Counted from the first letter of the stretch, positions 1 through 34,275 are shown. The stretch: DNA of 64,000 nucleotides from Candidatus Planktophila sp. (GCA_030681675.1 JAUXRP010000040.1:124001-188000), one strand, 5' to 3'. Numbers and translations: made by a program. Notes: generated by a model from the sequence alone, not told the origin.

Positions 1-795
1 TCCGCCGGCGTTATAGGCAAGATTGCCTCCATCAACTGGCAGGATAGTTCCGGTAACCATTGCCGCGGCATCACTTGCTAGGAAATGAACCGCATGTGCT
101 ATATCGGCAGGTTCTGCAACCCTACCAAGGGGTATCCCACTGATTAAAAGATCCATAAGAGGTTTGGCTTTTTCTCCCTCTACTTCTATCCATTTTCTCC
201 AACCGGGTGTATTTACTGAACAGGGCTGGATCGCATTGACGCGAATATTTGATTTCGCCCACTCGATTGCAAGTTCACGAGTCAACTGATTTACCCCACC
301 CTTTGAAACGCTATATGCGAAATTTCCGCGTCCAATTGCCGAGCTACCGGCAATAGAGCTTATATTTACAATTACTCCAGGTTTTTTAGCTGCAAGAACT
401 AGTTTCGAAAATTCTCTGGCGTTCAAAAAATATCCTGTTAATGAAGTTCCGATTACCTTATTCCAAATTTCTAAAGTTGTATCTTGAGGAGGTGTATGGG
501 TACCCGCAGCGGCATTATTAATTAAAATATCTGCTACGCCGAATTTATTCGAGACAAATTTAAATAGGCTCACCACATCTGCTTCGATACTAGAATCGCC
601 TCTGAAGGTTGTTGTGGATATCCCCAGGGACTCCAATTCTTTCTGGCCTGCAGCGAGTCCTATTTCATCTATGTCAGACATAATTATTTGCGCACCATCA
701 CCGCCTAGCTGTCTGCAAACCTGCATTCCTATACCGCCGGCAGCTCCTGTAACAACGACAACTTTTCCTTTAACACTGAACGCCCCTATTGTCAT
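1..795 (-). CDS. SDR family NAD(P)-dependent oxidoreductase (3' end cut by window edge)
   Basis: The frame is open from ATG at 795 to the left edge, with no stop seen. Its 265 visible codons already reach the family's C-terminal VDGGN segment, so only a few residues are missing. The N-terminus has the Rossmann motif TGAAGGIG, followed by NNAA, an active-site serine in VNISS and the YxxxK pair in YSVSK. A GGAG ribosome site lies just before the ATG. It follows the E1 beta gene by 13 bases, so it is probably the last gene of the operon that starts near 4022. The classical SDR fold is clear. The substrate is not known, but the setting suggests a sugar acid or hydroxy acid. Confidence 0.85.
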   Translation of the reverse strand, partial: MTIGAFSVKGKVVVVTGAAGGIGMQVCRQLGGDGAQIIMSDIDEIGLAAGQKELESLGISTTTFRGDSSIEADVVSLFKFVSNKFGVADILINNAAAGTHTPPQDTTLEIWNKVIGTSLTGYFLNAREFSKLVLAAKKPGVIVNISSIAGSSAIGRGNFAYSVSKGGVNQLTRELAIEWAKSNIRVNAIQPCSVNTPGWRKWIEVEGEKAKPLMDLLISGIPLGRVAEPADIAHAVHFLASDAAAMVTGTILPVDGGNLAYNAGG

Positions 796-808
796 TTAAT
801 TCTCCATT

Positions 809-1795
809 TCAGTAAGAAACAACTTCTCTAACAGCCTTTGAAATTTGTTCGACTGAGGGTATTGCAGACTCTGTCATTGCGGGGTTAGCACTCAGTGGAG
901 CACGAACAGCGCCAACTCTAATGATCGGGCCTTTCAGCGCACGAAAGTTTCGTTCGGTCGCTGCAGACGCAATTTCACCGGTGATTGAGCCAAACAATGG
1001 TGCTTCATCCAGAACAACAACTCTTCCGAACTCTTGAACCGCTCTGTCGATTGCCTCTTGATCGAGTGGATATAGCGTGCGTAAATCAATGATTTCCACC
1101 GAAATACCTTCGCCTTCTAGTGCTTGAGCTGCTTTTGTAGCGGTTATTACTGAGTAGCCATACGTAATTATTGCCGCGTCTTTACCTGTTTTCACCGTTT
1201 TGGCTTTTCCAAATGGAATAAAGAGATTTTCATCTCCAATTTCACCTCGTGCACCAGACAATTTCTTATGCATTAAGAAGATAACTGGATCCTCAGATCG
1301 CAAAGCAGTTTTTATGAGTCCCTTAACATCTCTAGCTGTCGAAGGAACGGCGATTGAAAGTCCGGGAGTTTGTGCAAAAAGAGATTCCAATGAATTACAG
1401 TGATGAGCTCCCCCAAGTGCAACTCCGGAAGTTGCTCGTATAACCAGCGGAACTGGCGTTCCAAACATAAATCGAATCTTTGCCGCTTGATTAATGATTT
1501 CATCCATAGCTCCTAGAGAGAAATCAATAAAGTTTAAATCCACAATGGGATGGCATCCATACATCGCAGCCCCAACTCCTGCCGCGACCATTGCCGCTTC
1601 AGAGATTGGTGCGTCACGAACTCTGTCATGACCAAACTCCTGCGCGAGGCCTTTCACTTGGGCAAAGTGCCCGCCTCGCTCTACAAGATCGGTTCCGAGA
1701 ATAAAGATGTTTTTATTGAGGTTCATTTCTTCGCGAACTCCGGATTGAAAAGCCTCGGAATACGTTGGTGTAATTGTTTTGACCTCGGTTGTCAT
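809..1795 (-). CDS. 2-oxoacid dehydrogenase E1 component, beta subunit (acetoin/pyruvate type)
   Basis: This 328-residue protein has the transketolase pyrimidine-binding and C-terminal halves of E1 beta. Recognisable stretches are DAPISEAAMV near the glutamate that activates thiamine diphosphate, GGAHHCNSLE, VFLMHKKL and VVLDEAPLFGSITGEIA. It pairs with the alpha subunit just upstream, which it overlaps by 4 bases. Together they should decarboxylate a 2-oxoacid and transfer the acyl unit to a lipoyl domain. The sequence looks more like the acetoin or pyruvate branch than the branched-chain enzyme encoded at 31.9-35.4 kb, but the substrate cannot be settled by eye. Confidence 0.9.
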   Translation of the reverse strand: MTTEVKTITPTYSEAFQSGVREEMNLNKNIFILGTDLVERGGHFAQVKGLAQEFGHDRVRDAPISEAAMVAAGVGAAMYGCHPIVDLNFIDFSLGAMDEIINQAAKIRFMFGTPVPLVIRATSGVALGGAHHCNSLESLFAQTPGLSIAVPSTARDVKGLIKTALRSEDPVIFLMHKKLSGARGEIGDENLFIPFGKAKTVKTGKDAAIITYGYSVITATKAAQALEGEGISVEIIDLRTLYPLDQEAIDRAVQEFGRVVVLDEAPLFGSITGEIASAATERNFRALKGPIIRVGAVRAPLSANPAMTESAIPSVEQISKAVREVVSY

Positions 1796-2778
1796 AGTTG
1801 AACTCCCAACTTGCCTGAATCTACGCCCTGAGTAATTGTTGAAAGGTCAGGCTCTGGTGAAGACTCTGCAAAAGCAACTGCCTCCTCTATTTCCTGGCGC
1901 ACTGATGTACGAAGCTCATCCACTTCAGATTGAGTGATTAACCCTTCGGAGAGTACTTTCTCTGTGAACATGTCAATTGGATCTCGTGTATTACGCCACT
2001 GTTGGATTTCATCTTGAGTGCGATACTGACCTTTTTCGCCGACATTATGACCATAATATCTATAGGTTATGGCATTAATAAAAGTCGGACCCTCGCCCGC
2101 AAGCGCTCGCTCTCGTGCCTGACGTACGTGCTCACGGACTTCGATGACATCTTGCCCATTGATATTAAAAGAAGGTAGTCCAAATCCAGCGCCTCGTTTT
2201 GCTAAATCACCACCACCTGTAACACGACCAACGAAAGTTTCAACGGCGTACTGATTATTATCAACCACAATTATTAATGGTAGTTTCCAGATCACCGCCA
2301 TATTAATTGACTCCCATGTTCTGCCAGTATTCATACCTCCATCTCCGACAAAACCAATCGCTACTTTCTTTTCACCTCTGTGTTGGATTCCAAGGGCAGC
2401 ACCCATAGCTATTCCGACACCGGCGCCTACAATTCCATTTCCCCCAAAATGGCCTCGTGAAACTCCAGCTAAATGCATTGAGCCCCCACGGCCCCCCGAA
2501 ACTCCAGTTGACTTTGCCATTAACTCAGCCATTACCGATTTAGGCGAAAATCCTTTTGCAAGTGTGTGGTGATGAGATCGGTGTGTTGTCGCAATTACAT
2601 CATCATCGGCAAGTGCTGATAAAACACCAACCGCCACGGCTTCCTGCCCGGATGAGTTATGCATACCTCCCGGAACTTTGCCGCGCAGGCACAATTTATC
2701 CGCAGTCTCTTCAAAGTCTCTTATAACCATCATGCCACGCAACAACAAAACGGCTTCACGTTTATCAATGGAAGACAT
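1792..2778 (-). CDS. 2-oxoacid dehydrogenase E1 component, alpha subunit
   Basis: This is a thiamine-diphosphate enzyme of 328 residues, normal for E1 alpha. The cofactor motif GDGGMNTGRTWESINMAVIW carries the expected GDG and Asn residues for Mg-ThDP binding. The substrate-side stretches SSGQEAVAVG, THRSHHHTLAKG and GSMHLAG are also present. The gene starts 3 bases after the free lipoyl-domain gene and overlaps the beta subunit by 4 bases, so lipoyl carrier and both E1 subunits are likely translated together. No E2 acyltransferase or E3 gene follows, which is unusual for this family. Confidence 0.9.
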   Translation of the reverse strand: MSSIDKREAVLLLRGMMVIRDFEETADKLCLRGKVPGGMHNSSGQEAVAVGVLSALADDDVIATTHRSHHHTLAKGFSPKSVMAELMAKSTGVSGGRGGSMHLAGVSRGHFGGNGIVGAGVGIAMGAALGIQHRGEKKVAIGFVGDGGMNTGRTWESINMAVIWKLPLIIVVDNNQYAVETFVGRVTGGGDLAKRGAGFGLPSFNINGQDVIEVREHVRQARERALAGEGPTFINAITYRYYGHNVGEKGQYRTQDEIQQWRNTRDPIDMFTEKVLSEGLITQSEVDELRTSVRQEIEEAVAFAESSPEPDLSTITQGVDSGKLGVQL

Positions 2779-2781
2779 CTA

Positions 2782-3030
2782 TCACTCCACCTCTCCAGGA
2801 GAAAGAACAACGGTAATCGTATTTCCTGCCGGTACTTCATCATTGACTGAGTAGCGATGCTTTCCAAGGATGCCTGATGTTTCAGCGGGAATATCCATAG
2901 TTGTTTTGTCGGTTTCAATCACAGCAACAGCATCACCAACATTGATTGCATCTCCAGGTTGTTTTAACCACTCAAGTAAAACAGCATTATCCATCGCCAT
3001 CCCTAGCGCAGGAACGAAAATTTCTTCCAT
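2782..3030 (-). CDS. Free-standing lipoyl-domain protein
   Basis: At 82 residues, the protein is just one biotinyl/lipoyl-attachment domain. The predicted lipoylated lysine is in IETDKTTMDIP, near residue 43, on the beta turn typical of E2 N-terminal domains. No peripheral-subunit-binding domain or acyltransferase domain follows: the frame stops after GEVE, and the E1 alpha start is a few bases on. It should act as the swinging-arm acceptor for the E1 encoded next to it. A separate E2 core is presumably supplied from elsewhere, or the complex works in a way not known here. A truncated E2 is possible, but the clean end and tight spacing argue for a real small gene. Confidence 0.85.
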   Translation of the reverse strand: MEEIFVPALGMAMDNAVLLEWLKQPGDAINVGDAVAVIETDKTTMDIPAETSGILGKHRYSVNDEVPAGNTITVVLSPGEVE

Positions 3031-3050
3031 GTCTTATTTCTCCTTTTGTT

Positions 3051-4022
3051 TTAGAATGGGCCTGTTGCAAACTTTCCATTTATAATTACTTGGTCTTTAA
3101 TAAATGAGAAAGCATCAGTTAATCCCCATTCGACTAGTCGAGGACCTGAACTTTTCGAATACCAAGCTATATGTGGAGAAAGAATCAAATTCTTCGTTTT
3201 GCGTATTAAAGCATCTTCTACGAGTGGCTCTTTCTCAAAAACATCTAACCCAGCCCCATCTAAGTGACCGCTTTCTAAAGAGTCGATTAGTGCGTCTTCA
3301 TCGATTAATCCACCTCGAGATACGTTTACCAAAATAGATCCCTTTGGCATCAAGGCGAGCTCGCGTCTTCCAATCATATGATGAGTTGCTGGTGAATAAG
3401 GAGCGTGCATGCTGACGATTTTGCTCGCAGTTAAAAGCTCATCAAGAGAATTAACCATTCTTACACCAGGTATTTCTCCAGTTACTGCAGGATCAAAACC
3501 CAGAATCTCATTAACAAAAGGCTTCATTTTTCCGATGAAACTCTGCCCGATACGACCGCAACCAATAACGCCGATTGTAGAATCTTGCAGTGAAGTTATC
3601 TCCGCAATTTGAGTTGCTGGAATCCATTTACCCGCCTGGGTTGTGATAGTTGCTTGTAACAAACCACGATGTAACGCCAGCACCATTGCAGCTGCGTGGT
3701 TTGCTACTTCATTGAATGCATAAGTTGGTTGAAAAATTACGGGTAGTTTATATTTCTTGGCTGCAACCAAATCGATGCTATCTAATCCAACTCCTAATCG
3801 CCCGATACACTTAATCGAGGCGGGCATCTCTGAAATCTTTTCTTCATTCAATTTATGTAGAGCGACCAGAAGCGCTGAACAATCCGTGGCTGTAGCCTTG
3901 AGATCCTCTACAGAGTCAACCGGTCCAAATTTTAGATCTATATCAAGTTTGTCTGCGACAACGGTCGCCCAGGAAGGGTCTGCTAAAGCACCTTCGGCAA
4001 TGGCAATCTTTACTCTCGACAT
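3051..4022 (-). CDS. D-isomer-specific 2-hydroxyacid dehydrogenase
   Basis: This 323-residue member of the D-2-hydroxyacid dehydrogenase family is close in type to phosphoglycerate dehydrogenase-like enzymes. The NAD-binding motif VIGCGRIGQSF lies mid-protein. The catalytic Arg-Glu-His triad is seen in NVSRGGLID, FEKEP and SPHIAWYS. A GGGGAG ribosome site precedes the ATG. It is the first gene of the minus-strand operon and should interconvert a 2-hydroxyacid and a 2-oxoacid, which could feed the E1/lipoyl enzyme downstream. It lacks the ACT regulatory domain of long serine-biosynthesis enzymes, which supports a catabolic role. Confidence 0.88.
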   Translation of the reverse strand: MSRVKIAIAEGALADPSWATVVADKLDIDLKFGPVDSVEDLKATATDCSALLVALHKLNEEKISEMPASIKCIGRLGVGLDSIDLVAAKKYKLPVIFQPTYAFNEVANHAAAMVLALHRGLLQATITTQAGKWIPATQIAEITSLQDSTIGVIGCGRIGQSFIGKMKPFVNEILGFDPAVTGEIPGVRMVNSLDELLTASKIVSMHAPYSPATHHMIGRRELALMPKGSILVNVSRGGLIDEDALIDSLESGHLDGAGLDVFEKEPLVEDALIRKTKNLILSPHIAWYSKSSGPRLVEWGLTDAFSFIKDQVIINGKFATGPF

Positions 4023-4127
4023 CTAGCTCCCCATCACTCCTGTTAGGGGTTTACTGTATACAATTTGCCATGTTTAAGGTAGTGTTTTGGAAAATTAAAA
4101 TTCTCGGTTAACCTGAAAGGAATCGCC
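4023..4127. promoter_or_regulatory. Divergent promoter region with palindrome TGTATACA
   Basis: This 105-base gap separates the divergent hydroxyacid dehydrogenase and FAH-hydrolase operons and should hold both promoters. A perfect 8-base palindrome, TGTATACA, sits at 4055-4062. It could be the core of an operator for a GntR-type regulator controlling both operons, but that is inference from its shape and place. No regulator gene is present nearby. The AT-rich stretch at 4085-4105 may hold the -10 region of the rightward promoter. Confidence 0.4.
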
Positions 4128-4781
4128 ATGGATTTACCCCTACCGATGCCAGGAAAAGTGATTGCTGTAGGCCTTAATTACAAGGATCATGCCGCAGAAG
4201 CCGGCATCCCACTCCCAGAATTTCCTGTTCTATTTACTAAGTGGACAACCTCGCTGATTCCACATGGTGCCGACATTATTCTTCATAAAGGGGTCACCCA
4301 ATTGGATTGGGAGGCAGAGCTCGCGGTTGTAATCGGGAAGCGGGCCACACTCGTAAAGGAGAGTGAAGCGATGGACTACGTCTCCGGCTATGCATGCATG
4401 AACGATGTTACTGATCGCGAAGCTCAGGGCAAGGACGGTCAATGGGTCAGGAGTAAGTCCTACAACACCTATGGACCAATAGGTCCCGTCATTGTTCCAG
4501 CCGGAGAGATTCCAGACCCACACAATCTAAAGATTGAAGCTCGTCTCAACGGCAAAACCATGCAATCTAGCAATACAAAGAATCTGATTTTCAATATTCC
4601 ATTTCTAATTTCTTATATTAGCCAAAGAGTTACCTTAGAAGCCGGAGATGTAATCACGACTGGAACACCGCATGGAGTCGGACTTTTTTACAAACCGCCA
4701 ATCTTCATGAAGCCAGGGGATGTAATCGAAATCGAAATCGAAAAGATTGGAATTTTGACAAATAAGGTAGTTGCCGAGTAA
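4128..4781 (+). CDS. Fumarylacetoacetate hydrolase (FAH) family protein
   Basis: This 217-residue protein keeps the FAH-family core. It has GLNYKDHAAEAG, the metal-binding acidic residues in DWEAELAVVIG, the following NDVTDRE, and the C-terminal TTGTPHGVG. It is shorter than the roughly 280 residues of many members because the N-terminal extension is absent. Family members hydrolyse or decarboxylate 2,4-dioxoacids and acylpyruvates. Followed by a 2-keto-3-deoxy-fuconate-type dehydrogenase and a KDPG-type aldolase, a 2,4-diketo-3-deoxy sugar acid hydrolase is a reasonable guess. An AAAGGA ribosome site precedes the ATG. Confidence 0.88.
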   Translation: MDLPLPMPGKVIAVGLNYKDHAAEAGIPLPEFPVLFTKWTTSLIPHGADIILHKGVTQLDWEAELAVVIGKRATLVKESEAMDYVSGYACMNDVTDREAQGKDGQWVRSKSYNTYGPIGPVIVPAGEIPDPHNLKIEARLNGKTMQSSNTKNLIFNIPFLISYISQRVTLEAGDVITTGTPHGVGLFYKPPIFMKPGDVIEIEIEKIGILTNKVVAE

Positions 4782-4783
4782 TT

Positions 4784-5550
4784 ATGAGCTACAAGGATTC
4801 AGATCGTAAGTTAGCAGTGATCACTGGAGGAGCCAATGGGATTGGTTTAGCCACAGCCCATAACCTTGCCCAAAAAGGGTATGACCTTTTTTAATTGATA
4901 GAGATTTAGAGAACTTGAAAGTTGCTGAGGTTGAGCTAAAAGTTCATGGGACATCAATAAAAATTCTAGATCTTGACTTATCGGAGAGCTCAAATGTTCT
5001 TAACGTAATGAGTAATGCAGTGAGAGGCTTTAATGTTGATGCACTTGTAAACAATGCAGGGGTCGGTTTTGCACGAACAGTCGAGCAAACGACTTTAGAT
5101 GAGTGGGATCTAACCTTTTCTGTCAATATAAAAGCCACTTTTATCATGTGTAAAGTAATTATTCCTCAAATGATTGCAAATGGAGGCGGAGTAGTTGTAA
5201 ATGTAGCTTCGGCTGGCGCTTTGGTTGGGTTAAAAAATAGAGTCGCATACTGTGCCTCAAAATCCGCCGTGGTTGGTCTAACTCGATGTATTGCCGTAGA
5301 TCATGCACAACAGGGTATTCGTATTAATGCAATCGCACCAGGGACAGTTGATTCAACATGGATTGCAAGAATTCTATCTGATGCCACCGATCCTGTTGCA
5401 GCAAGAAAATTAATGGAAGCGCGCCAATTGGATGGAAAGATGGGAACCCCGGAAGAGGTTGCACATGGAATCGCATTCCTATTAAGCCCGGAGGCCAGAT
5501 TTGTAAATGGAAGTGTTTTTTCGATGGATGCAGGATTAACCGCAGTATGA
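4784..5550 (+). pseudogene. SDR family oxidoreductase split by a one-base frameshift
   Basis: The N-terminal part starts at ATG 4784, two bases after the FAH gene, and carries TGGANGIG. It stops at TAA 4892-4894, after 36 codons ending KGYDLF. The rest of an SDR continues at once in another frame (IDRDLENLKV, NNAGVG, VNVASAG, YCASK, DAGLTAV). One T missing from the run of six at 4887-4892 explains the break. The C-terminal part, including APGTVDSTWIARIL and MEARQLDGKMGTPEEVA, resembles 2-keto-3-deoxy-L-fuconate dehydrogenases. The reading could be an assembly error, slippage on the T run, or a real recent inactivation. The downstream part shows no other decay, which favours error or slippage. 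Confidence 0.8.
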
Positions 5551-6155
5551 GCAGAGTTTTTAATTCTGGTGTAATTGCGGTTATAAGAACTAATAATTCA
5601 GACGATGCACTTGTTATCGCTCGTGCCCTAAATGACACAGTCGTAGATGCGATTGAAATTACTATGACAGTTCCAAACGCTTTAGATGTAATTGAAACTC
5701 TGGTGAATGAGGGAGTTGAACGAATCGGAGCTGGTACCGTCAGAACCGTTGACCAAGTTAATGCGATTGCAAAGGTTGGAGGGCAATTCGTTGTTTCACC
5801 TCACACAAACCGAGAGATTATTGAAGCAGCCATTAAAAACAATTTGAAGGTAACACCAGGTACGGCGACTCCAACAGAGATGATGCAGGCCATGGCATGG
5901 GGAGCAACATTGGTGAAGATTTTTCCAATTTGGGCCTTCGGAGGTCTGGAGTATATAAAGAGTGTTTTAGAGCCGCTTCCTGATTTACCAATTGTCGTCT
6001 CTGGCGGTGCCACCCCAGAAGAGGTAAAAGAGTATTTGAAGTTGGGAGTAAAAGGCGTCTGCTTGGGCGGGGCACTGTGGGAGCAATCCATCGTTTCAAC
6101 AGGTAGCGTTTCGGCGGTACGTGCATATGCTGTTAACGCACTTTCGAGAATCTAA
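5547..6155 (+). CDS. KDPG/KHG-type aldolase
   Basis: This 202-residue class I aldolase resembles Eda. The Schiff-base lysine is Lys124 in TLVKIFP, and the base-acting glutamate is Glu37 in AIEIT. The phosphate-site loop SGGATPEEV is present. The arginine usually found a few residues after the glutamate is missing (ITMTVPNAL), and the last phosphate loop reads CLGGALW, so a non-phosphorylated 2-keto-3-deoxy acid is possible. The gene overlaps the frameshifted SDR by 4 bases. It should release pyruvate and an aldehyde. The exact substrate is not known. Confidence 0.85.
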   Translation: MSRVFNSGVIAVIRTNNSDDALVIARALNDTVVDAIEITMTVPNALDVIETLVNEGVERIGAGTVRTVDQVNAIAKVGGQFVVSPHTNREIIEAAIKNNLKVTPGTATPTEMMQAMAWGATLVKIFPIWAFGGLEYIKSVLEPLPDLPIVVSGGATPEEVKEYLKLGVKGVCLGGALWEQSIVSTGSVSAVRAYAVNALSRI

Positions 6156-6178
6156 AAGAGAGAAGTAGTGAGTTCACA

Positions 6179-6499
6179 ATGAAATTTGCGGTCATGGTCG
6201 TTTTCAAAGTTCTCAACTCAGAAGTAACGGTTTTTGAGAAGGAATTGAGAATACACGCAGAGAATACGTGGAAAGAGACTGGGGCTTTGAAATTCATCGT
6301 ATATATCGATGAATTAGATCCATCAACATTCTATCTATACGAACTTTACGAGAATCGAAAAGAATTTGAGAAACATACACAAACTGACTACATAGAAATT
6401 TTCAAAAATAAGGTAACACCTTTGCTGAGAGAACCAGCTCAAATATTTCGAGGCGTTCCAAGAATTTCGAATCCAAAATCTGACAAAGGTGAAATCTAG
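6179..6499 (+). CDS. ABM-domain (antibiotic biosynthesis monooxygenase-like) small protein
   Basis: This 106-residue protein has the ferredoxin-like dimeric alpha+beta barrel pattern of the ABM/YgiN family: a strand near VMVVFKV, a helix with HAENTWKETGALKF, then FYLYELYENRKEFEKHTQT. Relatives include quinol monooxygenases and LsrG-type isomerases acting on small sugar-derived substrates. It lies 23 bases after the aldolase and is probably in the same transcript. A role as an isomerase or detoxifying oxygenase in the pathway fits, but nothing in the sequence fixes it. It is followed by a minus-strand gene 11 bases on. Confidence 0.75.
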   Translation: MKFAVMVVFKVLNSEVTVFEKELRIHAENTWKETGALKFIVYIDELDPSTFYLYELYENRKEFEKHTQTDYIEIFKNKVTPLLREPAQIFRGVPRISNPKSDKGEI

Positions 6500-6510
6500 A
6501 AAAAATTCAT

Positions 6511-7293
6511 TTAACTATCAAAATCTGCTCCGCTTAACACGCCTCCATCAATTAAAATCGATTGCCCAGTAACATAGCTCGAGGCCTCACTTGCAAGATA
6601 TATAACAGCTCCCACAAGTTCCTCAGGTTCTGCCATTCTCCCAATGGGAGTAAAGTTGTTAAACCACTCACTTCGCTTTGGATCCCCCCAAAGAGGACGA
6701 GTAAATTCCGTCTTAACATATCCAGGTTCAATGCAATTAACTCGGATTCCATCTGAAATCCACTCGCGAGCAAAGGATCGAGTCATGGAGGAAACTGCAG
6801 CTTTTGTGGCAGCATAAACGGAGACTGTATTGAAACTAAAACGAGCAGTTATAGAACTTACATTAACAATTGATCCAGAACCCTTTACTTTCATGATTGA
6901 GTGGACTGCCTGACTTAGAAAATAGACAGCTCGCATATTAACCGCAACGATTGCCTCGAAATCATCAAGGGTGACATCAACTATCGATTTACGACGATTT
7001 ATTCCGGCACAATTTACAAGAATATCAATTGAACCTAATGCCGATGCCGCTTCAGCAGCCAAAAGAGTGCAGGCCGCCGTATCGGTCAAATCTGCGGCAA
7101 ATAAGAAAACACGACCACCGGTGGCTTCAATAATCTTTTTCGTTTGTTGCAATTTCTCGAGAGTTAAATCCTGTATTGCAACAGTAGCGCCAGCTTGAGA
7201 CATGGCTTGTGCTAAAACAGAACCAATTGCGCCGCCGGCGCCGCTGATTAATGCAGTCTTACCTTTTAGTGAAAATAACTCCAATCCAGTCAT
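6511..7293 (-). CDS. SDR family oxidoreductase, gluconate 5-dehydrogenase-like
   Basis: This is a complete classical SDR of 260 residues. It has the cofactor loop SGAGGAIG, NCAGINRR, the active-site Ser in NVSSI, and YAATK with Tyr and Lys. The C-terminal GQSILIDGG is typical. The overall pattern, including GINRRKSIVD, resembles gluconate 5-dehydrogenase and 2-deoxy-D-gluconate 3-dehydrogenase families. It begins 2 bases after the stop of the ABC ATPase gene upstream in the same direction, so it is probably co-transcribed with the importer. That links the imported compound with the oxidation steps encoded here. Confidence 0.85.
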   Translation of the reverse strand: MTGLELFSLKGKTALISGAGGAIGSVLAQAMSQAGATVAIQDLTLEKLQQTKKIIEATGGRVFLFAADLTDTAACTLLAAEAASALGSIDILVNCAGINRRKSIVDVTLDDFEAIVAVNMRAVYFLSQAVHSIMKVKGSGSIVNVSSITARFSFNTVSVYAATKAAVSSMTRSFAREWISDGIRVNCIEPGYVKTEFTRPLWGDPKRSEWFNNFTPIGRMAEPEELVGAVIYLASEASSYVTGQSILIDGGVLSGADFDS

Positions 7294-7295
7294 TT

Positions 7296-8081
7296 TTAAC
7301 CGGCGTTTTTAGAGTTAATTTGTAAATGACCAGGAATAGAGGAAATGAGTTTTTGGGTATAAAGCTCTTTTGGATTATTGAATATCTCCTCTGATTTACC
7401 CGACTCGACAAATTCACCATTTTGCATCACGTAGACACTATCTGTGAGGTATCGAATTACTCCTAGGTCATGGGAAACAAGAACAATCGAAAGTCCATCT
7501 TTGATTAGTTCACTAAATAGCTCAAGTAATTGTGATTGTGCACTTTGATCGATGGCCGAGGTTGGTTCGTCTGCAATTAATATCTTTGGTTGAACTGACA
7601 ATGCGCGGGCAACAGATGCGCGTTGGCGTTGTCCGCCAGACAGTGAACTTGGGTATTTGAATGCGTCAATTTCACTAATACTCATTCGCTTAAGTAAATC
7701 AAGAGCAATTTGCTGAGCCTCTGCCTTGTTTGGGTTCTGGTGAATTCGAACTGCTTCTGAAACAGCATTAATAATTCTCATACGGGGATTTAAACTACTG
7801 TATGGATCCTGAAAAACCATTTGAACAGCTTTTCGAAGTTCACCTTTATAAATTTCTCTACCTTCTTGAATCGGCTTTCCCAAGTATGTTACATAGCCAC
7901 TTGTAGGAGATTGGATACCCGATAAGACTCGAGCAAGAGTTGATTTACCACTGCCTGATTCGCCAACAATTCCAACAACTTGGCCTTGAGGAAGCACAAA
8001 ATCAACATTTTTTACTGCTTGGACTTCGTATCCGAATGATTTAAAAGTGACACTTACATCGAAGGCTTCAAGCAAGTTCAT
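7296..8081 (-). CDS. Peptide/nickel-type ABC transporter ATP-binding protein (DppF-like)
   Basis: This 261-residue ATPase shows Walker A GESGSGKST, the Q-loop region QMVFQDPYSSLNPRM, signature LSGGQRQR, Walker B ILIADEPTSA and the switch histidine in LVSHDLG. The QDPYSSLNPRM stretch is characteristic of DppF/OppF subunits. It overlaps the partner ATPase by 14 bases. The C-terminus is shorter than in many DppF proteins, which carry an extra oligopeptide-specific domain. It should power import together with the DppD-like subunit. Confidence 0.92.
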   Translation of the reverse strand: MNLLEAFDVSVTFKSFGYEVQAVKNVDFVLPQGQVVGIVGESGSGKSTLARVLSGIQSPTSGYVTYLGKPIQEGREIYKGELRKAVQMVFQDPYSSLNPRMRIINAVSEAVRIHQNPNKAEAQQIALDLLKRMSISEIDAFKYPSSLSGGQRQRASVARALSVQPKILIADEPTSAIDQSAQSQLLELFSELIKDGLSIVLVSHDLGVIRYLTDSVYVMQNGEFVESGKSEEIFNNPKELYTQKLISSIPGHLQINSKNAG

Positions 8082-9069
8082 TTGAATCCCCCCAAATCTC
8101 CGCTTGGCGAAGGCAGGCGCTTACATGGTCTTTTCCCACTTTGGCGAGTGGAATCTCTATATCTTCGGAACACATAGGCTTTGCATAATCACATCGCGCT
8201 GCAAAGCGACAACCTGTTGGCCAATCGCCAACTGTTGGAGGTTGACCCTTTATTGTTACTAATTTTCCGCGAGGTTCTACTAAGTCAATGCGTGAGTTAT
8301 ATAATGCCTCTGTATATGGATGACGGGTTTCTTTTATTTTAGAAGATGGAATCTCCTCCACTGTGGCACCTGCATGCATAATCACAATATCATCGCAAAC
8401 CTCGTTAATTAATGGAAGATCATGTGAAACAAGAATTATTGAGGTATTGAGATCTTTTCTGATTTGTCGGAGAAGATCCATGATCTCGGCTTGGACAGTC
8501 ACATCCAGGCCAGTTGTCGGCTCATCGGCGACAATCAATTGTGGCTGGCGAGCTATAGCGCAAGCAATCATAATTCTTTGCTTCATTCCCCCAGAGAGTT
8601 CGTAAGGGTACTGCTTTAGTACAACTTCAGGGCGCCGTATCTGAACTATATTCAACAATTCAATCGCTCGTTCCCGAACTACGGAATCATTCATTTTTTC
8701 ACCCTGCCGAATCGCTTCAGCCAATTGCGCGCGGACTGTCATTACAGGATTTGGACCGGCTAAAGCAGACTGAGGGATATATCCAATTCGCTTGCCGCGG
8801 ATATCTCTCCACTCTTTCGGTGATGCATTCACCAAATCAGTACCATCAAATTTGAGGGACCCTGATTTAATATATGCACCTCGACGTTGCAAGGTGCCGA
8901 CTAATGAACGGCACAACATTGTTTTGCCAGACCCAGATTCTCCTATGAGTCCCAGCAGCTCACCTGGCTGAATATCGAAAGTGGCACTATTGACAATAGT
9001 TAATCTGCGTTTGCGGGTAACTTTAACGTCAATACGAAGAGAATCAATTTCAACGAGTGCTTTACTCAT
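8068..9069 (-). CDS. Peptide/nickel-type ABC transporter ATP-binding protein (DppD-like)
   Basis: This 333-residue ATPase has Walker A GESGSGKTM, QSALAGPNPVMT, signature LSGGMKQR, Walker B LIVADEPTTG and VSHDLP. The C-terminal oligopeptide-transporter domain carries the cysteine motif CRFAARCDYAKPMC, which in DppD/OppD proteins binds a cofactor, usually an iron-sulfur cluster. It overlaps both neighbours by a few bases in a tight operon. The set belongs to the family that also carries sugar acids, opines and oligosaccharides, so peptide specificity should not be assumed. Confidence 0.92.
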   Translation of the reverse strand: MSKALVEIDSLRIDVKVTRKRRLTIVNSATFDIQPGELLGLIGESGSGKTMLCRSLVGTLQRRGAYIKSGSLKFDGTDLVNASPKEWRDIRGKRIGYIPQSALAGPNPVMTVRAQLAEAIRQGEKMNDSVVRERAIELLNIVQIRRPEVVLKQYPYELSGGMKQRIMIACAIARQPQLIVADEPTTGLDVTVQAEIMDLLRQIRKDLNTSIILVSHDLPLINEVCDDIVIMHAGATVEEIPSSKIKETRHPYTEALYNSRIDLVEPRGKLVTIKGQPPTVGDWPTGCRFAARCDYAKPMCSEDIEIPLAKVGKDHVSACLRQAEIWGDSNELA

Positions 9070-9935
9070 GAATTCCCTCGATCTCTGCGCGAAAGCCCTT
9101 CAACAATAAATGAGAGAGAGATAGCAGACCAACACAATGCCAGACCAGGGAAAATTGTCAACCACCATGCTTGACCCAGAAAAGTTCTACCATCGGCAAT
9201 CATTGCACCCCACTCTGCTGTGGGTGGCCTTGCCCCTAATCCCAAAAATGAAAGTCCAGAAACCACAATAATTACCAAAATAAAATCGCTTAGTGCATAG
9301 GCAAGACTTTCAGACGAAACATTTGGTGATATATGTTTTGCAATGACTCTACGCTTTGAGAAACCCATGAGTTTTGTTGCTTCAATGTAGTTCTGAGCGA
9401 GAACTACTACAGCTTTGGTACGTGCAATACGAGCGTAACGTGCCCAGTTCATAACAGAAAGAATAATGACGACATTAAACAATCCAGGCCCTAAAAAAGT
9501 AACCATGGCAATTGCAATAATCAGTAATGGAAATGCGTTTATTCCATCAATGAGAGAACTAACAATACTTATAAAGTATTTATTCTTCGCTAATCCCAAG
9601 AGAATTCCAACAATCGTCCCAATAACTAATGGGATTGAAACTCCAAGGAATGCAATTCCTATATCTGAAGGTACTGCAGAAAAAACACGGGTCATGACAT
9701 CACGACCCAATTGATCCAATCCCATGGGATGTGCAAAAGACGGTGACTCAAGAGATTCTCCGACAAACTCATCAGCACCATAAGGGCTGAGCAGTGGGTA
9801 CAAAAACCCGACAATTGTTATAGATGCAAACATAAAAGTGCCCGTAATGATTCCAAATCCACCAGGGCGTGAAATCCATTCCTTTATCTTTTCACTTCTT
9901 GAAGCGTTTGCCAGTATTGCTTTGTTACTCCTCAT
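9066..9935 (-). CDS. Peptide/nickel-type ABC transporter permease (DppC-like)
   Basis: A cytoplasmic N-terminus leads into a first membrane helix near residues 30-50 and four to five further helices in this 289-residue inner-membrane permease. The coupling loop matches the family: NYIEATKLMGFSKRRVIAKH, then SGLSFLGLGARPPTAEWGAM. The segment HPMGLDQLGRDVMTR just after the first helix is a DppC hallmark. It overlaps the DppD-like gene and the DppB-like gene by 4 bases each, so all four transport subunits are translationally linked. Confidence 0.92.
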   Translation of the reverse strand: MRSNKAILANASRSEKIKEWISRPGGFGIITGTFMFASITIVGFLYPLLSPYGADEFVGESLESPSFAHPMGLDQLGRDVMTRVFSAVPSDIGIAFLGVSIPLVIGTIVGILLGLAKNKYFISIVSSLIDGINAFPLLIIAIAMVTFLGPGLFNVVIILSVMNWARYARIARTKAVVVLAQNYIEATKLMGFSKRRVIAKHISPNVSSESLAYALSDFILVIIVVSGLSFLGLGARPPTAEWGAMIADGRTFLGQAWWLTIFPGLALCWSAISLSFIVEGLSRRDRGNS

Positions 9936-10903
9936 AGTTTGACTCTCCGATCTAGAGCGTATGCCAGTAGATCACCAATGAAACTGAGAAACACGGTTAT
10001 AACGCCAAAGATAAGCAGAATTCCTTGAACCATTGGATAGTCGCTAGCAAGGACGGCTCCTACAAGTTCACGCCCAATTCCTGGCAGAGAAAAAATTGTT
10101 TCTAAAATTACGGTTGCCCCCAGCATGGTGCCCATCATGTAGGACATCAAAACTACAGTAGGGGCGAGTGAAGGCTTGAGAATATAGAACCAGAAAAACC
10201 GAGGACGGCTGACGCCTCTGATAATCCCTGTTTCAACAAACTCTTCTGCTTTAGTATCAACAACAGATGTGTGGAGAACTCTGGAAATAATAGCGACAAG
10301 AATCAGACTGTTGATTGAGACTGGAAGCCATAAATATTTGAGGTTTTCTGGAAAGTCACTCACATATCCAAATAGCGGTGCCCAGTTCCTTGTAACGCTA
10401 AAAAGTAAAATTCCAATCATCGCAATAAAAAAGTTGGGAGTCGCAATAATAATCGATGTTAGTCCTCTAAATACATAAACCGTTGAAGCTTTATTTGACC
10501 ATCCAATAATTGTTCCTATTGGAATTGATATCAAGAAAGCAAGTAAAACAGATAAAGTAATGTATGTGAGAGTCAATGGAAACGTTCGCTTTATAGTTTC
10601 TAGAACATCCACACCATTGACCAGTGAAACACCCAGGTCTCCCTGCAACAAATTCTTAAGATAATCAATGAATTGAGTAAAGATACCTCTATTGAGTCCG
10701 AGCTGTTCACGAAGTTGTTCGATGGCTTCAGGTTCAGCGCCAGCACCTAAACGCGCAGAGGCGGGATCGCCCGGAGAGAGTCTGATTAATGAGAAGGAAA
10801 TTACCATTACCCAAAATGAAATGGAGACTGCCCGTAAAAAGCGCCCAAAAATTTTCCGGAGAAAGATATTTCTATTCACGGAACTATTTTCCACCCTCCA
10901 CAT
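9932..10903 (-). CDS. Peptide/nickel-type ABC transporter permease (DppB-like)
   Basis: This 323-residue permease has an N-terminal helix (ISFWVMVISFSLIRL) followed by GDPA, the DppB hallmark. Further helices lead to the EAA-type coupling segment FVETGIIRGVSRPRFF. The C-terminal ETIFSLPGIGRELVGA is a strong family signature. It is the first permease gene after the substrate-binding protein and lies 150 bases downstream of it across a hairpin. That arrangement usually lets the binding protein be made in excess over the membrane subunits. Confidence 0.92.
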   Translation of the reverse strand: MWRVENSSVNRNIFLRKIFGRFLRAVSISFWVMVISFSLIRLSPGDPASARLGAGAEPEAIEQLREQLGLNRGIFTQFIDYLKNLLQGDLGVSLVNGVDVLETIKRTFPLTLTYITLSVLLAFLISIPIGTIIGWSNKASTVYVFRGLTSIIIATPNFFIAMIGILLFSVTRNWAPLFGYVSDFPENLKYLWLPVSINSLILVAIISRVLHTSVVDTKAEEFVETGIIRGVSRPRFFWFYILKPSLAPTVVLMSYMMGTMLGATVILETIFSLPGIGRELVGAVLASDYPMVQGILLIFGVITVFLSFIGDLLAYALDRRVKL

Positions 10904-10956
10904 TCAAAGTTCTGTACACGCTTCGGACAAAATCATTAAAGACTAGAAATCAATTA

Positions 10957-10986
10957 CCTGGGTGTCCACGATTGTGAACACCCAGG
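10957..10986 (-). terminator. Hairpin between binding-protein and permease genes
   Basis: CCTGGGTGT at 10957-10965 pairs with ACACCCAGG at 10978-10986, and an inner CAC/GTG extends the stem past one mismatch. The loop is GATT. On the minus strand the stem is followed by a moderately T-rich stretch. It may be a partial terminator or an mRNA-end-stabilising hairpin between the binding-protein gene and the permease genes. A weaker imperfect repeat, CCAAGA/TCTTGG, lies at 11001-11024. Confidence 0.6.
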
Positions 10987-11053
10987 CTCTCGACTATTGG
11001 CCAAGAGAATTCAATATTTCTTGGCAACTCGTTAACCCAAGACTAAATTAAAT

Positions 11054-12664
11054 TTAGTCTGTTGGGAGAGGTGGGTTTGTAGCCAAAACAAACTGTAATT
11101 GTCCAGGCAATAGGGCTTCCACAATATTGTTTCCTACTCGGCTACCGGATAGATAGAAACGGTTCCCGATCGGAATAAAGGCAGACAAATCAAAAGCTAT
11201 CTTTTCGACGGCCGCTAACTTGTCTTGGATAACAGATGAGCTTTCAGATGCTGAAGCTTCACTAAGGAGTTTTCCTGACTCCAAAATAAGTGCATCCGGG
11301 ACATTTGCAAGACCTGCCCAAACTCCACCTGGCTTAAACCAGTTTGAGAGCTGAAGAATTGGTGTGGCAGCGTTATTTCCAAACCACAACATTTCCCAGT
11401 CCTTCTTGTTAAGTACTGCTGAAATAGCTGAGTCTGGAGTCACCATTTGAATTGTTACATCAATGCCGACGAACTTTAGGCTGTCCTTGACAACCTGAGC
11501 TGCATCTTGCCAGAAGATACGGTTTGGAACTGGCATATTGATCTTGAGTCCATTTGCATAACCAGCGTCTTTAAGTAACTTGCGAGCTGCCGCTGTATCA
11601 CGCTTTCCATTTTTTGGAATTGAACAGACTACATAATCATTGTTGAAATTGAACTGCATTCCACAGTTTGGCTTTCCTAGGTTAGCGAATGCAGTCCGCA
11701 TGATTGCTGCGCGATTAACGGCGAGCGAGATGGCTTGACGTACTCTGGCATCTTTTAGAGCCTTATTTGGTTGATCTGGGCCCATGTTAAATGCCAACAT
11801 AAAAGTACCTGAATCCTGCTCTCCTGTGACGCGGAACTTTGACTTATCCCACTGAATACTCTTTGCACCTAGTGGAAGTTCCATAACATAATCAATTGCC
11901 CCTGACTGGAATGCGGCTAGGCGTGTATTGCCATCTGGAATTGTGACAACACGAAGCTCCTTCACTAGCGACTTTGCCCAGTAATTTGGATTTGCAACGA
12001 GAGTGAAAGCATCTGTTCCAGGAACAAAAGACTTAACCATCATTGGTCCACCGGCAACTGGATTCTTAAAGTATTCCTTGGCCTTATCCTCAGTATCTGT
12101 TTTGCCCGCAGGGTGAATTCCGAGGAACTCTTGTGCAAGTGCAAAGTTGAAATCTGGGTATGGACGCTTCAAACTCCATACGAGTGTTTTGGCATCTTTT
12201 GCTACTACTTTGTCTACTGCGTCAATGTATGAAGCAGAACGCTTTGAATTAATCCAACGACTGAATGAATTAACAACGTCTGCAGCAACAAGTGCTGTGC
12301 CGTCAGAATACTTCGCCGCGCGGAGAGTATGGGTGACAGTTTTTCCATCACTACTCACTTCAGCTGTCTCAACTAAATCGCGACGAGGCTTTCCATTTGC
12401 GTCATAACGGTAGAGCTTGCCTTGAACTAGATATGCCATCTGGCCTTCTGTATATCCACCAACTGGATTGATTGGATCCAATGATTGAACTCTTTGGAGG
12501 GCGCCGTACGTGACAACATCACACACAGCATTCTTAGTGGTTGATTTGACCGTGCAGTTTGTACCTGTTGCCGCTTGAGCAGGTTGTAGTGCAACCAATG
12601 TGCCAATCGCTAAAGCAATTGATACAAAAGTGGCCAACAAGCGACCGGATCTTTTTGACTTCAT
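11054..12664 (-). CDS. ABC transporter substrate-binding protein, family 5
   Basis: This 536-residue secreted binding protein fits the importer encoded downstream. The N-terminus is a signal peptide (basic start, hydrophobic core, AQA/A cleavage near residue 31), with no lipobox cysteine. Family 5 features are RVQSLDPINP near the start of the mature protein, AADVVNSFSRW, VWSLKRPYPDF, and DARVRQAISLAVNR in the hinge region. An AGGGAG ribosome site is spaced 8 bases from the ATG. Family 5 proteins bind peptides but also sugars and opines. The dehydrogenase-rich surroundings make a non-peptide ligand likely. Confidence 0.9.
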   Translation of the reverse strand: MKSKRSGRLLATFVSIALAIGTLVALQPAQAATGTNCTVKSTTKNAVCDVVTYGALQRVQSLDPINPVGGYTEGQMAYLVQGKLYRYDANGKPRRDLVETAEVSSDGKTVTHTLRAAKYSDGTALVAADVVNSFSRWINSKRSASYIDAVDKVVAKDAKTLVWSLKRPYPDFNFALAQEFLGIHPAGKTDTEDKAKEYFKNPVAGGPMMVKSFVPGTDAFTLVANPNYWAKSLVKELRVVTIPDGNTRLAAFQSGAIDYVMELPLGAKSIQWDKSKFRVTGEQDSGTFMLAFNMGPDQPNKALKDARVRQAISLAVNRAAIMRTAFANLGKPNCGMQFNFNNDYVVCSIPKNGKRDTAAARKLLKDAGYANGLKINMPVPNRIFWQDAAQVVKDSLKFVGIDVTIQMVTPDSAISAVLNKKDWEMLWFGNNAATPILQLSNWFKPGGVWAGLANVPDALILESGKLLSEASASESSSVIQDKLAAVEKIAFDLSAFIPIGNRFYLSGSRVGNNIVEALLPGQLQFVLATNPPLPTD

Positions 12665-12834
12665 TTAACAATCTCCCTTTGTGAACGGTTAACGATTTAC
12701 AGGGACTATAGTGGTTTGCATCACAAAAAAAAAGGGCAAAAGAAGCTATTTTGCAACTGTTATGCAATAGTTACAGACAGAAGTTACGAGTGAGTCACAT
12801 GCAACAACAAGGAGTCAATGAAGTTTTATTGTAA

Positions 12835-13881
12835 CTATTCCTTAATTTTCAGAGCTGGCATTCCATATCGCTCGCCCACTGTCTTTAAGCTCTGGAGAAC
12901 TTCGGAGTCGATAGCGATCCCTTCGAGGTTCCGTTTGCTCTTGACTTCATACTCCAACTCTCCAGGCAAATAAACTCGCTCCCCGAAAACGGCTGCAGAG
13001 CCATGGAAAATTGATCCAAATTGTTGGGCAATCAGGCTAAAACTTCCAACATCGATGAAACACGAGATATCTAGGGCGATAAAAACTGTGCCATTTCCGA
13101 AACCACTGTTGGAAATCGCGGCTGGCATGTTACCCGAGAGTATCCCAGCAGCAACGTCGATGAGCGCTGAGAGGCCTGAGCCTTTATGTCCACCGAATGC
13201 AATGAGCGAACCGCCATCATGGAAATCCTGAGGATTCGTTGAGGGCTGGCCATTTTTATCGATGAGGGCTCCCGGCTCAATCTTTTCACCGCTCATTCCT
13301 GCGAGAATAATTTTGCCAGCTGCAACGACCGCCGTAGAAAAATCTAAAACATAATTAAAAGCATCTGTACCAGGAACGGCCCAGGCAAAGGGATTTGTTC
13401 CAAGAACGCCTTTAACTCCACCCCAGGGTGCGACTATCGGACCGCCAGTATTACAAAAGGCTATTCCCATTAGCCCTTCTTGAGCCATTAAATCTACGTA
13501 TTCACCAAGTCGGCCAACGTGATTTGACCTGCTTAAAACAACAGAAGCGGTTCCGTACTTTTTAGCTAATTCAATGGTTTTTTCTGTGGCTAGATAGGAG
13601 GCGCTCTGCCCCCATCCCCACGCCCCATCAACTACAGCTGTTGCCTCTTTGCTCCATGATAAAACAGGCCTAGCGGTTGGAATGAGTGCACCACTTTCAA
13701 CCCAACCAGAGTATTCAACCAATCGAATGACACCGTGGGAGTCATGTCCGACTAAATTTGAGAGTACCAAGGACTTTGAGACTGATTCGGCGATGTCCAG
13801 AGGCGCACCCATGCCAACAAATACGCCAGTAGCAAACTTTTCTAACTCCTGCGCTGTAAAAAGTGAGGGAGAGTTAGACAA
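12835..13881 (-). CDS. Ldh2/malate-lactate dehydrogenase family oxidoreductase
   Basis: This 348-residue protein is of the Ldh_2 (YlbC/MDH2) family, which is unrelated to classical lactate dehydrogenases. Family stretches are VLSNLVGHDSHGV with the catalytic His, VVLSRSNHVGRLGEYV, GVLGTNPFAWAVP and FGGHKGSGLSALIDV. Members use NAD(P) to oxidise or reduce 2-hydroxyacids such as L-sulfolactate, ureidoglycolate, malate or keto-sugar acids. The gene overlaps the hydratase-like gene upstream by 8 bases. Its position upstream of the importer suggests that it acts on the imported hydroxy acid. Confidence 0.87.
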   Translation of the reverse strand: MSNSPSLFTAQELEKFATGVFVGMGAPLDIAESVSKSLVLSNLVGHDSHGVIRLVEYSGWVESGALIPTARPVLSWSKEATAVVDGAWGWGQSASYLATEKTIELAKKYGTASVVLSRSNHVGRLGEYVDLMAQEGLMGIAFCNTGGPIVAPWGGVKGVLGTNPFAWAVPGTDAFNYVLDFSTAVVAAGKIILAGMSGEKIEPGALIDKNGQPSTNPQDFHDGGSLIAFGGHKGSGLSALIDVAAGILSGNMPAAISNSGFGNGTVFIALDISCFIDVGSFSLIAQQFGSIFHGSAAVFGERVYLPGELEYEVKSKRNLEGIAIDSEVLQSLKTVGERYGMPALKIKE

Positions 13882-14803
13882 ATTTTGCCTCTACCAGACC
13901 TAAATCCGCAAAGTCCACACTCACCAAGTCCCCGGGCTGTACAAAACAGTGGCCCGTACAAGTCCCTGTGCTGATGTACTCGCCAGCAAATACATCTCTT
14001 CCCCGCTCTCGAGCCCAATTCACCATCCATGTAAGGCTAGTAACGGGATGGCCCATCGCTTGGTATCCCTGGCCCGATTTAATGTAAAAACCATTTACAT
14101 AGATATCTAAAGTGGATTGTGGAAGATCAATCTCCTGCCAATCTTTTATTTTTTCGCCAATAACAAATGCCGCTCCGCCCGCATTGTCATACATTCCCCC
14201 AAAGTAGCCACTTAAGCTATACCAGTCTTCAAAGACAGAGTCACCAATTTCTATTACAGGCATTAAAGAATCAATCCCCTTACGAAGATCAGATTCCGTA
14301 TAAGGGGTCTGCCGTGCAGGAAAATCCATACCAAGCTGAAATGCGAACTCGCACTCGCACAATCGATAATTTACAAAAAACTCAGAGGAGACTTCCGCTG
14401 GACTTTCTAATATTGAACGGGTGAATAATCTTCCAGGTGAGGGGCTTGGCATATTTTCAGCCTTTTGAACATCCAAACTTGCCGCACCAACTTTCCAACC
14501 CGCACCTTCCCAGCCCAAGGCATACTCCAAGATGAGTAAAACCTCCTCAACCGATTTCCAGGACCTCGCTTTGAGCCTTTCAGGCATGGTAACTGGAGTT
14601 CTAGATTTTCTTCCATTACTGATCAATTCAATTACTTCTGCTACTTCTGATGCCGATAAATCCGTACTCCTTTTTGAGGGCACAGAACCACCTGGTGGAG
14701 TTGGACCATGAATAAGACGACCACGGTCACTCAAATACTCTGGGCGAGGAATAGATTTTCCTAATCTAAGAGTGTTTAACCTTTGAGTCTGCACAATATC
14801 CAT
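13874..14803 (-). CDS. 2-keto-4-pentenoate hydratase-like protein (FAH superfamily)
   Basis: This 309-residue protein has the FAH-superfamily fold in its MhpD-like form: GWKVGAAS, ECEFAFQLGMD for metal binding, SLMPVIEIGDSVFEDW, and STGTCTGHCFVQPGDLVSVDF near the end. MhpD-type enzymes hydrate 2-keto-4-enoates, and 2-oxo-hepta-3-ene-dioate hydratases are close relatives. It starts the minus-strand operon. A CATAAT box lies 6 bases before the ATG with no Shine-Dalgarno site, so the message may be leaderless. No aromatic ring-cleavage gene is near, so a sugar-acid substrate is as likely as an aromatic one. Confidence 0.85.
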   Translation of the reverse strand: MDIVQTQRLNTLRLGKSIPRPEYLSDRGRLIHGPTPPGGSVPSKRSTDLSASEVAEVIELISNGRKSRTPVTMPERLKARSWKSVEEVLLILEYALGWEGAGWKVGAASLDVQKAENMPSPSPGRLFTRSILESPAEVSSEFFVNYRLCECEFAFQLGMDFPARQTPYTESDLRKGIDSLMPVIEIGDSVFEDWYSLSGYFGGMYDNAGGAAFVIGEKIKDWQEIDLPQSTLDIYVNGFYIKSGQGYQAMGHPVTSLTWMVNWARERGRDVFAGEYISTGTCTGHCFVQPGDLVSVDFADLGLVEAKFV

Positions 14804-33286: not shown

Positions 33287-33290
33287 GACC

Positions 33291-34274
33291 TTAATAACCC
33301 ATCCACTTTTCAACTGCGTCGAGAATTCTCTCGGCATCTGGTAAGTAATCATCCTCTATTCGACTTGGAGGATATGGAACGTCATAACCTGTCACTCTCA
33401 TCACAGGTGCTTCTAGTTTATAAAAGCACTCTTGGCTCAGGCGTGTAGCTATTTCTGCACCAACTCCTCCGCTGCGAGAAGCTTCATGAACTATGACGAC
33501 GCGACCAGTTTTATTAGCAGATTTAATTAACACAGGCATATCTATTGGACTTAAAGAGCGTAAATCAATAACTTCAAGAGTGACTCCATCTTCAGCTGCA
33601 AGTCGAGCAGCTTGCAAGCATGTAGCAATGGTCGGACCGTAACCAATAATTGTGCAATCTGAACCATCGCTTAAAACTCTTGCTTCATGCAACGCCGATA
33701 TTTCGTTGAGATGTAAATCAGTGTCGACCTCACTCTTTTGCCAATACCGCCGTTTTGGTTCTAGAAAAATAACGGGATCATCACTAGCAATGGATTGTTG
33801 GATCATCCAGTAAGCGTCATTTGAATTAGAACATGTAACGACTCTTAAACCAGGGGTTGCAGCAAAATACCCCTCTGGAGATTCACTGTGATGTTCAACG
33901 GAGCCAATGCCACCTCCGTAAGGAATTCTTATGGTGATGGGGAGGCTCAATGCACCGGCCGAGCGAAAGCGCATTCGTGCGAGCTGCACAACGATCTGAT
34001 CAAAAGCTGGGAAGACAAAACCATCAAATTGAATTTCGACAACGGGCCGAAATCCGTAGAGCGCTAAGCCAATTGCCGTTCCCACAATTCCAGATTCAGC
34101 TAATGGAGAATCAATCACACGCTCGTCCCCAAAAGATTTTTGAAGTCCTTCGGTCACGCGGAATACACCACCTAGCTTGCCAATATCTTCTCCCATGAGA
34201 AGTACCTTGGAATCAGCATCCATTGCGCGATGTAGACCTTGATTGAGGGCATGAACGATACTGAGTTGGGGCAT
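33291..34274 (-). CDS. bkdB: Branched-chain 2-oxoacid dehydrogenase E1 beta subunit
   Basis: This E1 beta of 327 residues starts MPQLSIVHALNQGLHRAMD. The typical stretches are VLLMGEDIGKLGGVFRVTEGL, DSPLAESGIVGTAIGLALYG, FDGFVFPAFDQIVVQ, RIPYGGGIGSVEHHSESPE and VIVHEASRSGGVGAEIA. They match branched-chain and pyruvate-type E1 beta of actinobacteria. It starts one base after the bkdA stop. ATG 34274 is chosen over 34328 since it matches the family's usual start and avoids a 53-base overlap. Confidence 0.92.
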   Translation of the reverse strand: MPQLSIVHALNQGLHRAMDADSKVLLMGEDIGKLGGVFRVTEGLQKSFGDERVIDSPLAESGIVGTAIGLALYGFRPVVEIQFDGFVFPAFDQIVVQLARMRFRSAGALSLPITIRIPYGGGIGSVEHHSESPEGYFAATPGLRVVTCSNSNDAYWMIQQSIASDDPVIFLEPKRRYWQKSEVDTDLHLNEISALHEARVLSDGSDCTIIGYGPTIATCLQAARLAAEDGVTLEVIDLRSLSPIDMPVLIKSANKTGRVVIVHEASRSGGVGAEIATRLSQECFYKLEAPVMRVTGYDVPYPPSRIEDDYLPDAERILDAVEKWMGY

Positions 34275-34275
34275 T

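Follow-up and report, generated by a model that had tools for sequence, protein, structure and literature searches.

Which compound is broken down by a gene cluster that sets dehydrogenases of several families beside a thiamine-dependent E1/lipoyl unit, and can one known pathway account for it? The question is raised by bases 1-14803 of the window, by which we mean the whole analysed stretch of 64,000 nucleotides from Candidatus Planktophila sp. (C40:124001-188000; the actinobacterial genome, G000, measures 1.83 Mb and C40 is one of its contigs). An earlier note had described these bases as a catabolic locus for an imported acid, and profile matches recovered every family that it named: three SDRs, a D-2-hydroxyacid dehydrogenase (D2HDH), Ldh2, two FAH-superfamily proteins, a KDPG-type aldolase, an ABM protein, the E1/lipoyl unit and a family 5 importer. 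As far as our searches of the literature reach, this locus has not been described. We propose, with a probability of roughly 0.62, that the region is part of an order-specific catabolic island for aldonic (sugar) acids, which combines non-phosphorylating breakdown (Route III plus aldolase) with an E1/lipoyl arm. The locus is a real, conserved catabolic island, most likely built on known non-phosphorylating aldonate chemistry, with the E1/lipoyl arm as its unusual part, and the full gene set probably consists of one core and one accessory module.

The region contains three transcription units, A (minus strand), B (plus) and C (minus). Unit A runs from D2HDH through the lipoyl-only protein, E1-alpha, E1-beta and SDR1 to a GntR/FCD regulator beyond the window edge; unit B comprises FAH1, SDR2, the KDPG-type aldolase and the ABM protein; unit C comprises an MhpD-like protein, Ldh2, the binding protein, two permeases, two ATPases and SDR3. 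Units A and B contain the following features:

-802 to -89 (left of the window): GntR/FCD regulator, after SDR1 at the end of unit A
1-795, minus strand: SDR1, final enzyme gene of unit A, extending 17 bases past the left window edge; ortholog in 17 loci
809-1795, minus strand: E1-beta, thiamine-dependent 2-oxoacid/acetoin-type dehydrogenase; PRK09212 274.7 bits (cut-off 321), Transket_pyr and Transketolase_C; ortholog in 20 loci
1792-2778, minus strand: E1-alpha, partner of the E1-beta at 809-1795; TIGR03182 344 bits (cut-off 394), PF00676 272 bits
2782-3030, minus strand: free-standing lipoyl-domain protein of 82 amino acids with ETDK lipoylation motif; PF00364 57 bits
3051-4022, minus strand: D2HDH, first gene of unit A
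4050-4064, plus strand: palindrome TTTACTGTATACAAT, a predicted operator, where the promoters of D2HDH and FAH1 diverge
4128-4781, plus strand: FAH1, FAH-family hydrolase, candidate 2,4-diketo-3-deoxyaldonate hydrolase; PF01557 251 bits, PDB 8gsr E 2.9e-56
4784-5550, plus strand: SDR2, candidate 2-keto-3-deoxyaldonate 4-dehydrogenase; one-base shift near 4886 in this assembly
5547-6155, plus strand: KDPG/KHG-type aldolase; TIGR01182 160 bits (cut-off 156); conserved in relatives
6179-6499, plus strand: ABM-fold small protein, LsrG-like, possible isomerase or mutarotase; PF03992, PRK10486 32.7 bits (cut-off 135); ortholog in 11 loci

A single gene island, specific to one order of actinobacteria, has its right-hand portion in the first 15 kb of the window. 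The locus had been taken to start at position 1, but extension of the sequence (L014, the 20 kb left of the window; window coordinates equal L014 coordinates minus 20000) showed that it continues for 4.6 kb with the GntR/FCD regulator and three enzyme genes, beyond which lies a candidate lactonase:

L014:18150-19211: second Ldh2 (Ldh2b)
L014:16889-18097: enolase-superfamily acid-sugar dehydratase of DgoD type, 1.9 kb left of the window, overlapping the FGGY kinase gene
L014:15424-16920: FGGY kinase
L014:13929-14735: UlaG-like metallo-hydrolase, candidate lactonase, 5.3 kb left of the window

A dehydratase and a lactonase had both been reported missing. The dehydratase belongs to the conserved core, while for the lactonase the UlaG-like protein is a candidate only: it has the HxHxDH motif and accompanies the dehydratase in seven loci, but scores 74 bits against the UlaG cut-off of 306. 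Since both genes lie just beyond the window, their apparent absence was an effect of the window edge. L014 further contains a sugar ABC importer, a KduD-like SDR, a DapA-type aldolase, LldD, which could not be assigned to lactate or to glycolate by comparison with solved structures, and a FAD-linked oxidase.

The island is well kept among relatives. In 296 genomes of the order we found orthologs of E1-alpha in 18 (at least 72% identity), of the dehydratase in 19, and of FAH1 and the binding protein in 17 each. Any two of these four genes occur together in 14-16 genomes where about one is expected (p 6e-18 to 2e-23, not corrected for relatedness). The E1-alpha orthologs are spread over eight genera, and across genera, as far as contigs reach, the same order recurs: FGGY kinase, dehydratase, Ldh2b, GntR, SDR1, E1-beta, E1-alpha, lipoyl protein and D2HDH, followed by the divergent FAH1, SDR2 and aldolase. 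In one genome of another genus (L023 and L029), everything from the FGGY kinase through the ABM protein, together with the importer, Ldh2 and the MhpD-like protein, is collinear with the window, and only SDR3 is absent. Relatives were also surveyed for loci in which the genes split into unrelated operons, and this was not so for the core genes. A phylum-wide sample yielded no E1-alpha ortholog beyond the order, and in plasmid records the relatives of E1 and the dehydratase are only ~45% identical and stand in other contexts. Comparison of the window genes with the best relative of each gave saturated synonymous sites but a nonsynonymous divergence (dN) of 0.09-0.26, which indicates strong purifying selection on all genes compared. 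The genomes of these actinobacteria are small (~1-2 Mb), and several relatives are lake or acI-labelled. That eight or more genera within a single order of such bacteria nevertheless retain an island of more than 15 genes with its own operator points to a widely available dissolved compound.

The operator links the two divergent units. The GntR-type palindrome TACTGTATACAAT is invariant in 13 loci despite diverged flanks, and each of nine genomes tested has one exact copy, always between D2HDH and FAH1. Palindromes of this form are common for GntR/FCD regulators, and a GntR/FCD gene ends unit A; judged from these sequence features, units A and B are therefore very probably one regulon, in which the regulator would act on a single operator to control the D2HDH-E1 and FAH1 operons jointly. 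Weak additional operator-like matches were no more than expected by chance and were dismissed.

What might this regulon do? Import of a sugar or sugar acid would fall to the family 5 ABC system in the window and to the sugar ABC importer of L014. Also left of the window, an SDR and the UlaG-like candidate lactonase would supply the aldonate, which the enolase-superfamily dehydratase would convert to a 2-keto-3-deoxyaldonate. SDR2 would then oxidise C4, and FAH1 would cleave the 2,4-diketo acid to pyruvate and a 2-hydroxyacid (lactate, glycolate or glycerate), as in Route III, with the KDPG-type aldolase as an alternative Route I split. The dehydrogenases LldD, Ldh2 and D2HDH may oxidise the released hydroxyacid, and the E1-lipoyl unit may decarboxylate or cleave the resulting 2-oxoacid or hydroxyketone. 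We infer the substrate and these reactions from the co-occurrence, conserved gene order, shared single-copy operator and purifying selection described above, and from the evidence on the individual enzymes that follows.

Firstly, the dehydratase, judged by its sequence, has the His/His and Glu/Glu/Glu pattern typical of the DgoD type. It is linked to the cluster and conserved with the core in 19 genomes, and its top characterised model is galactonate dehydratase (198 bits, below the cut-off of 311). Secondly, the aldolase has Gly where aligned KDPG aldolases have Ser (alignment to 1wa3); this Ser helps to bind phosphate, so that the replacement suits non-phosphorylated substrates. Thirdly, FAH1 matches L-2,4-diketo-3-deoxyrhamnonate hydrolase and other diketo-acid hydrolases, and its His21/Glu24 catalytic dyad, invariant in 15 sequences, corresponds to the His-Glu pair known from C785_RS20550, a Route III hydrolase (PMC6336799). 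Lastly, an intact SDR2 ortholog matches PDB 8xwk, L-KDF 4-dehydrogenase (E 7e-39), though not as its best match. This assembly shows a shift in the SDR2 reading frame near 4886, where six T stand in a row, but the frame is unshifted in 11 relatives (255 amino acids; one cut by a contig end), so that the shift is either an assembly slip or a recent loss.

The earlier note had recognised parts of a known non-phosphorylating route, and the FAH/SDR part does match Route III of L-fucose, L-rhamnose and pentoses (PMC11199699, PMC6336799). Both have an acid-sugar dehydratase, an SDR (here a candidate 4-dehydrogenase) and a FAH hydrolase that carries the His-Glu dyad, and in both these genes form a cluster that includes an ABC importer and a regulator. 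Could the locus then be exactly the known Route III for L-fucose or L-rhamnose, with incidental neighbours? FAH1 and SDR2 match fuconate and rhamnonate enzymes, and LldD, which would use L-lactate, adjoins the FGGY kinase in several relatives, but this seems quite improbable. FAH1 is short, lacks the N-terminal part of the L-2,4-diketo-3-deoxyrhamnonate hydrolase family (NF053535) and scores 229 bits against its cut-off of 500, and the dehydratase is distant from the rhamnonate dehydratase model (111 bits, cut-off 393). Moreover, a glycerate kinase is inserted after the aldolase of unit B in L060 and L061, and PPDK or enolase lies nearby in other relatives; these enzymes suggest glycerate as one product and do not suit lactate, while an LldD gene adjoining the FGGY kinase would fit lactate or glycolate. 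We also considered a detour dehydration of the sugar acid by the kinase, enolase and PPDK of these relatives. It was dropped because their enolase and PPDK exceed the curated cut-offs for the ordinary enzymes, and breakdown of glycerate would account for them. This locus further adds to Route III the conserved E1-alpha/beta pair with the lipoyl-only protein, D2HDH, two Ldh2, the FGGY kinase and the KDPG-type aldolase. No part of the locus is better conserved than the E1 unit, which is therefore not an incidental neighbour.

The E1 unit has the E1-alpha domain, the E1-beta domain and the lipoylation motif (ETDK, conserved in 15 sequences) of acetoin and other 2-oxoacid dehydrogenase complexes. 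In contrast to these complexes, its lipoyl domain is a separate protein, its operon partners are sugar-acid enzymes, and the locus encodes neither an E2 acyltransferase (catalytic domain) nor an E3. Elsewhere the genome encodes AceE, three E2 and one full-scoring E3, so that the unit is not the housekeeping pyruvate dehydrogenase. An E1-alpha/beta pair with a free lipoyl protein and without its own E2/E3 fits no published version that we found of non-phosphorylating aldonate breakdown; in the literature searched, none of these pathways includes an E1/lipoyl unit, which upholds the statement that no single known pathway uses this gene set. Tentatively, the unit, co-regulated with FAH1 and the aldolase, could be dedicated to a thiamine-dependent step in which a sugar-acid intermediate is either cleaved at a C-C bond or oxidatively decarboxylated, yielding an acyl-CoA or aldehyde; such a branch would lie outside every described aldonate pathway.

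A similar set lies in a sugar/polyol cluster on a Rubrobacter indicoceani plasmid (L067), where E1-alpha, E1-beta and a free lipoyl protein are neighbours of a sugar importer and a FGGY-type kinase. Its E1-alpha is only 45% identical, and it has a class II aldolase and a glycerol-phosphate dehydrogenase where our locus has dehydratase, FAH and SDR. This set, related E1 pairs with E2 in Rhizobium sugar clusters, the lipoyl-only partner, and the scores of E1-alpha and E1-beta below the pyruvate dehydrogenase cut-offs would all agree with an acetoin-dehydrogenase-like enzyme that cleaves an alpha-hydroxyketone from the sugar acid and not a 2-oxoacid from the FAH1 branch. We consider this unlikely, as no intermediate is known and none of the sequence features tested distinguishes acetoin-type from pyruvate-type E1. 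With the gene set, dehydratase and operator defined, both the substrate of the proposed aldonate island and the role of the E1-lipoyl unit become directly testable.

Two other thiamine enzymes were observed. A second E1-alpha-like gene with an E2 acyltransferase lies in the same window at about 31940-35298 on the minus strand (G000:C40:155940-159298) and probably belongs to a branched-chain-type 2-oxoacid complex. In three relatives, unit B carries an insertion that encodes a distinct type of AceE/transketolase-like enzyme of 788 amino acids (L028:16295-18661), and the window genome has a similar gene with one in-frame stop on another contig (G000:C17:81851-84208).

Unit C has the following features:

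6511-7293, minus strand: SDR3, KduD-like; not conserved in relatives and outside the conserved set
7296-10903, minus strand: family 5 ABC importer, two ATPases (one by Pfam) and two permeases; orthologs in relatives
11054-12664, minus strand: family 5 solute-binding protein; PF00496 231 bits; orthologs in 17 of the 296 genomes
12835-13881, minus strand: Ldh2-family dehydrogenase; PF02615 310 bits; always paired with the MhpD-like gene
13874-14803, minus strand: MhpD-like FAH-superfamily protein with conserved N-terminal extension; ten relatives at 72-80%

The imported compound is presumably an acid. The MhpD-like protein just misses its Pfam cut-off (23.4 bits, cut-off 23.9) but is clear by NCBIfam and PDB matches. 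Its homology to the 2-keto-4-pentenoate hydratase/4-oxalocrotonate decarboxylase family (MhpD, NahK) is detectable in the C-terminal two thirds, and it stays far under every curated cut-off of that family (about 70 bits; at least 350 for MhpD hydratases). AlphaFold models of this protein (pLDDT 46) and of the binding protein (pLDDT 43) were too poor for a fold search.

The MhpD-Ldh2 pair is kept in all ten genomes found through the MhpD-like protein, but in L021, L024 and L025 it lies apart from the core, and in L020 it likewise stands without a core gene, though that contig is short. The pair thus behaves as an accessory, separable module, and the enzymes listed need not all belong to one pathway. 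The view that all listed genes form one locus holds for the core, which travels as a unit in relatives, whereas this pair is separable and SDR3 falls outside the conserved set. One could go further and assume two neighbouring pathways, the aldonate route from FGGY kinase to aldolase and an importer with MhpD-like protein and Ldh2 for a different acid. The operator is confined to the core, in L021 and L024 the detached pair stands beside enolase, an MTR-kinase-like protein and a second enolase-superfamily protein, and genome G010 has the core with only a weak match to the MhpD-like protein. Two separate pathways still seem somewhat unlikely, since an E1-alpha ortholog is present in 10 of 10 genomes with the MhpD-like protein (one a contig-end fragment; that of G065 a distant relative, 44%) and, in 14-15 of the 17 genomes that have it, the binding protein goes with the core; in several genomes it lies near FAH1.

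Several points weigh against a single aldonate island. Besides the detachment of the MhpD-Ldh2 pair, no operator copy was found upstream of the importer operon (unit C), and a route entirely free of phosphorylation would leave the FGGY kinase without a role. No enzyme reaches a substrate-specific curated cut-off, the general aldolase model excepted; SDR2 is frameshifted in this assembly, and many other SDRs match its orthologs equally well or better than 8xwk.

In relatives, the neighbours of the MhpD-Ldh2 pair include an enolase paralogue, a kinase-like protein and a second enolase-superfamily protein (L021:11971-15339, L023:118-8411, L024:207-4656), and the L023 neighbourhood also holds PPDK and glycerate kinase. 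An acetoacetate-decarboxylase-family gene and an SDR lie 12-14 kb left of the window (L014:6331-7839); since their counterparts directly adjoin the pair in L023 (L023:8401-9924), they may belong to the same module.

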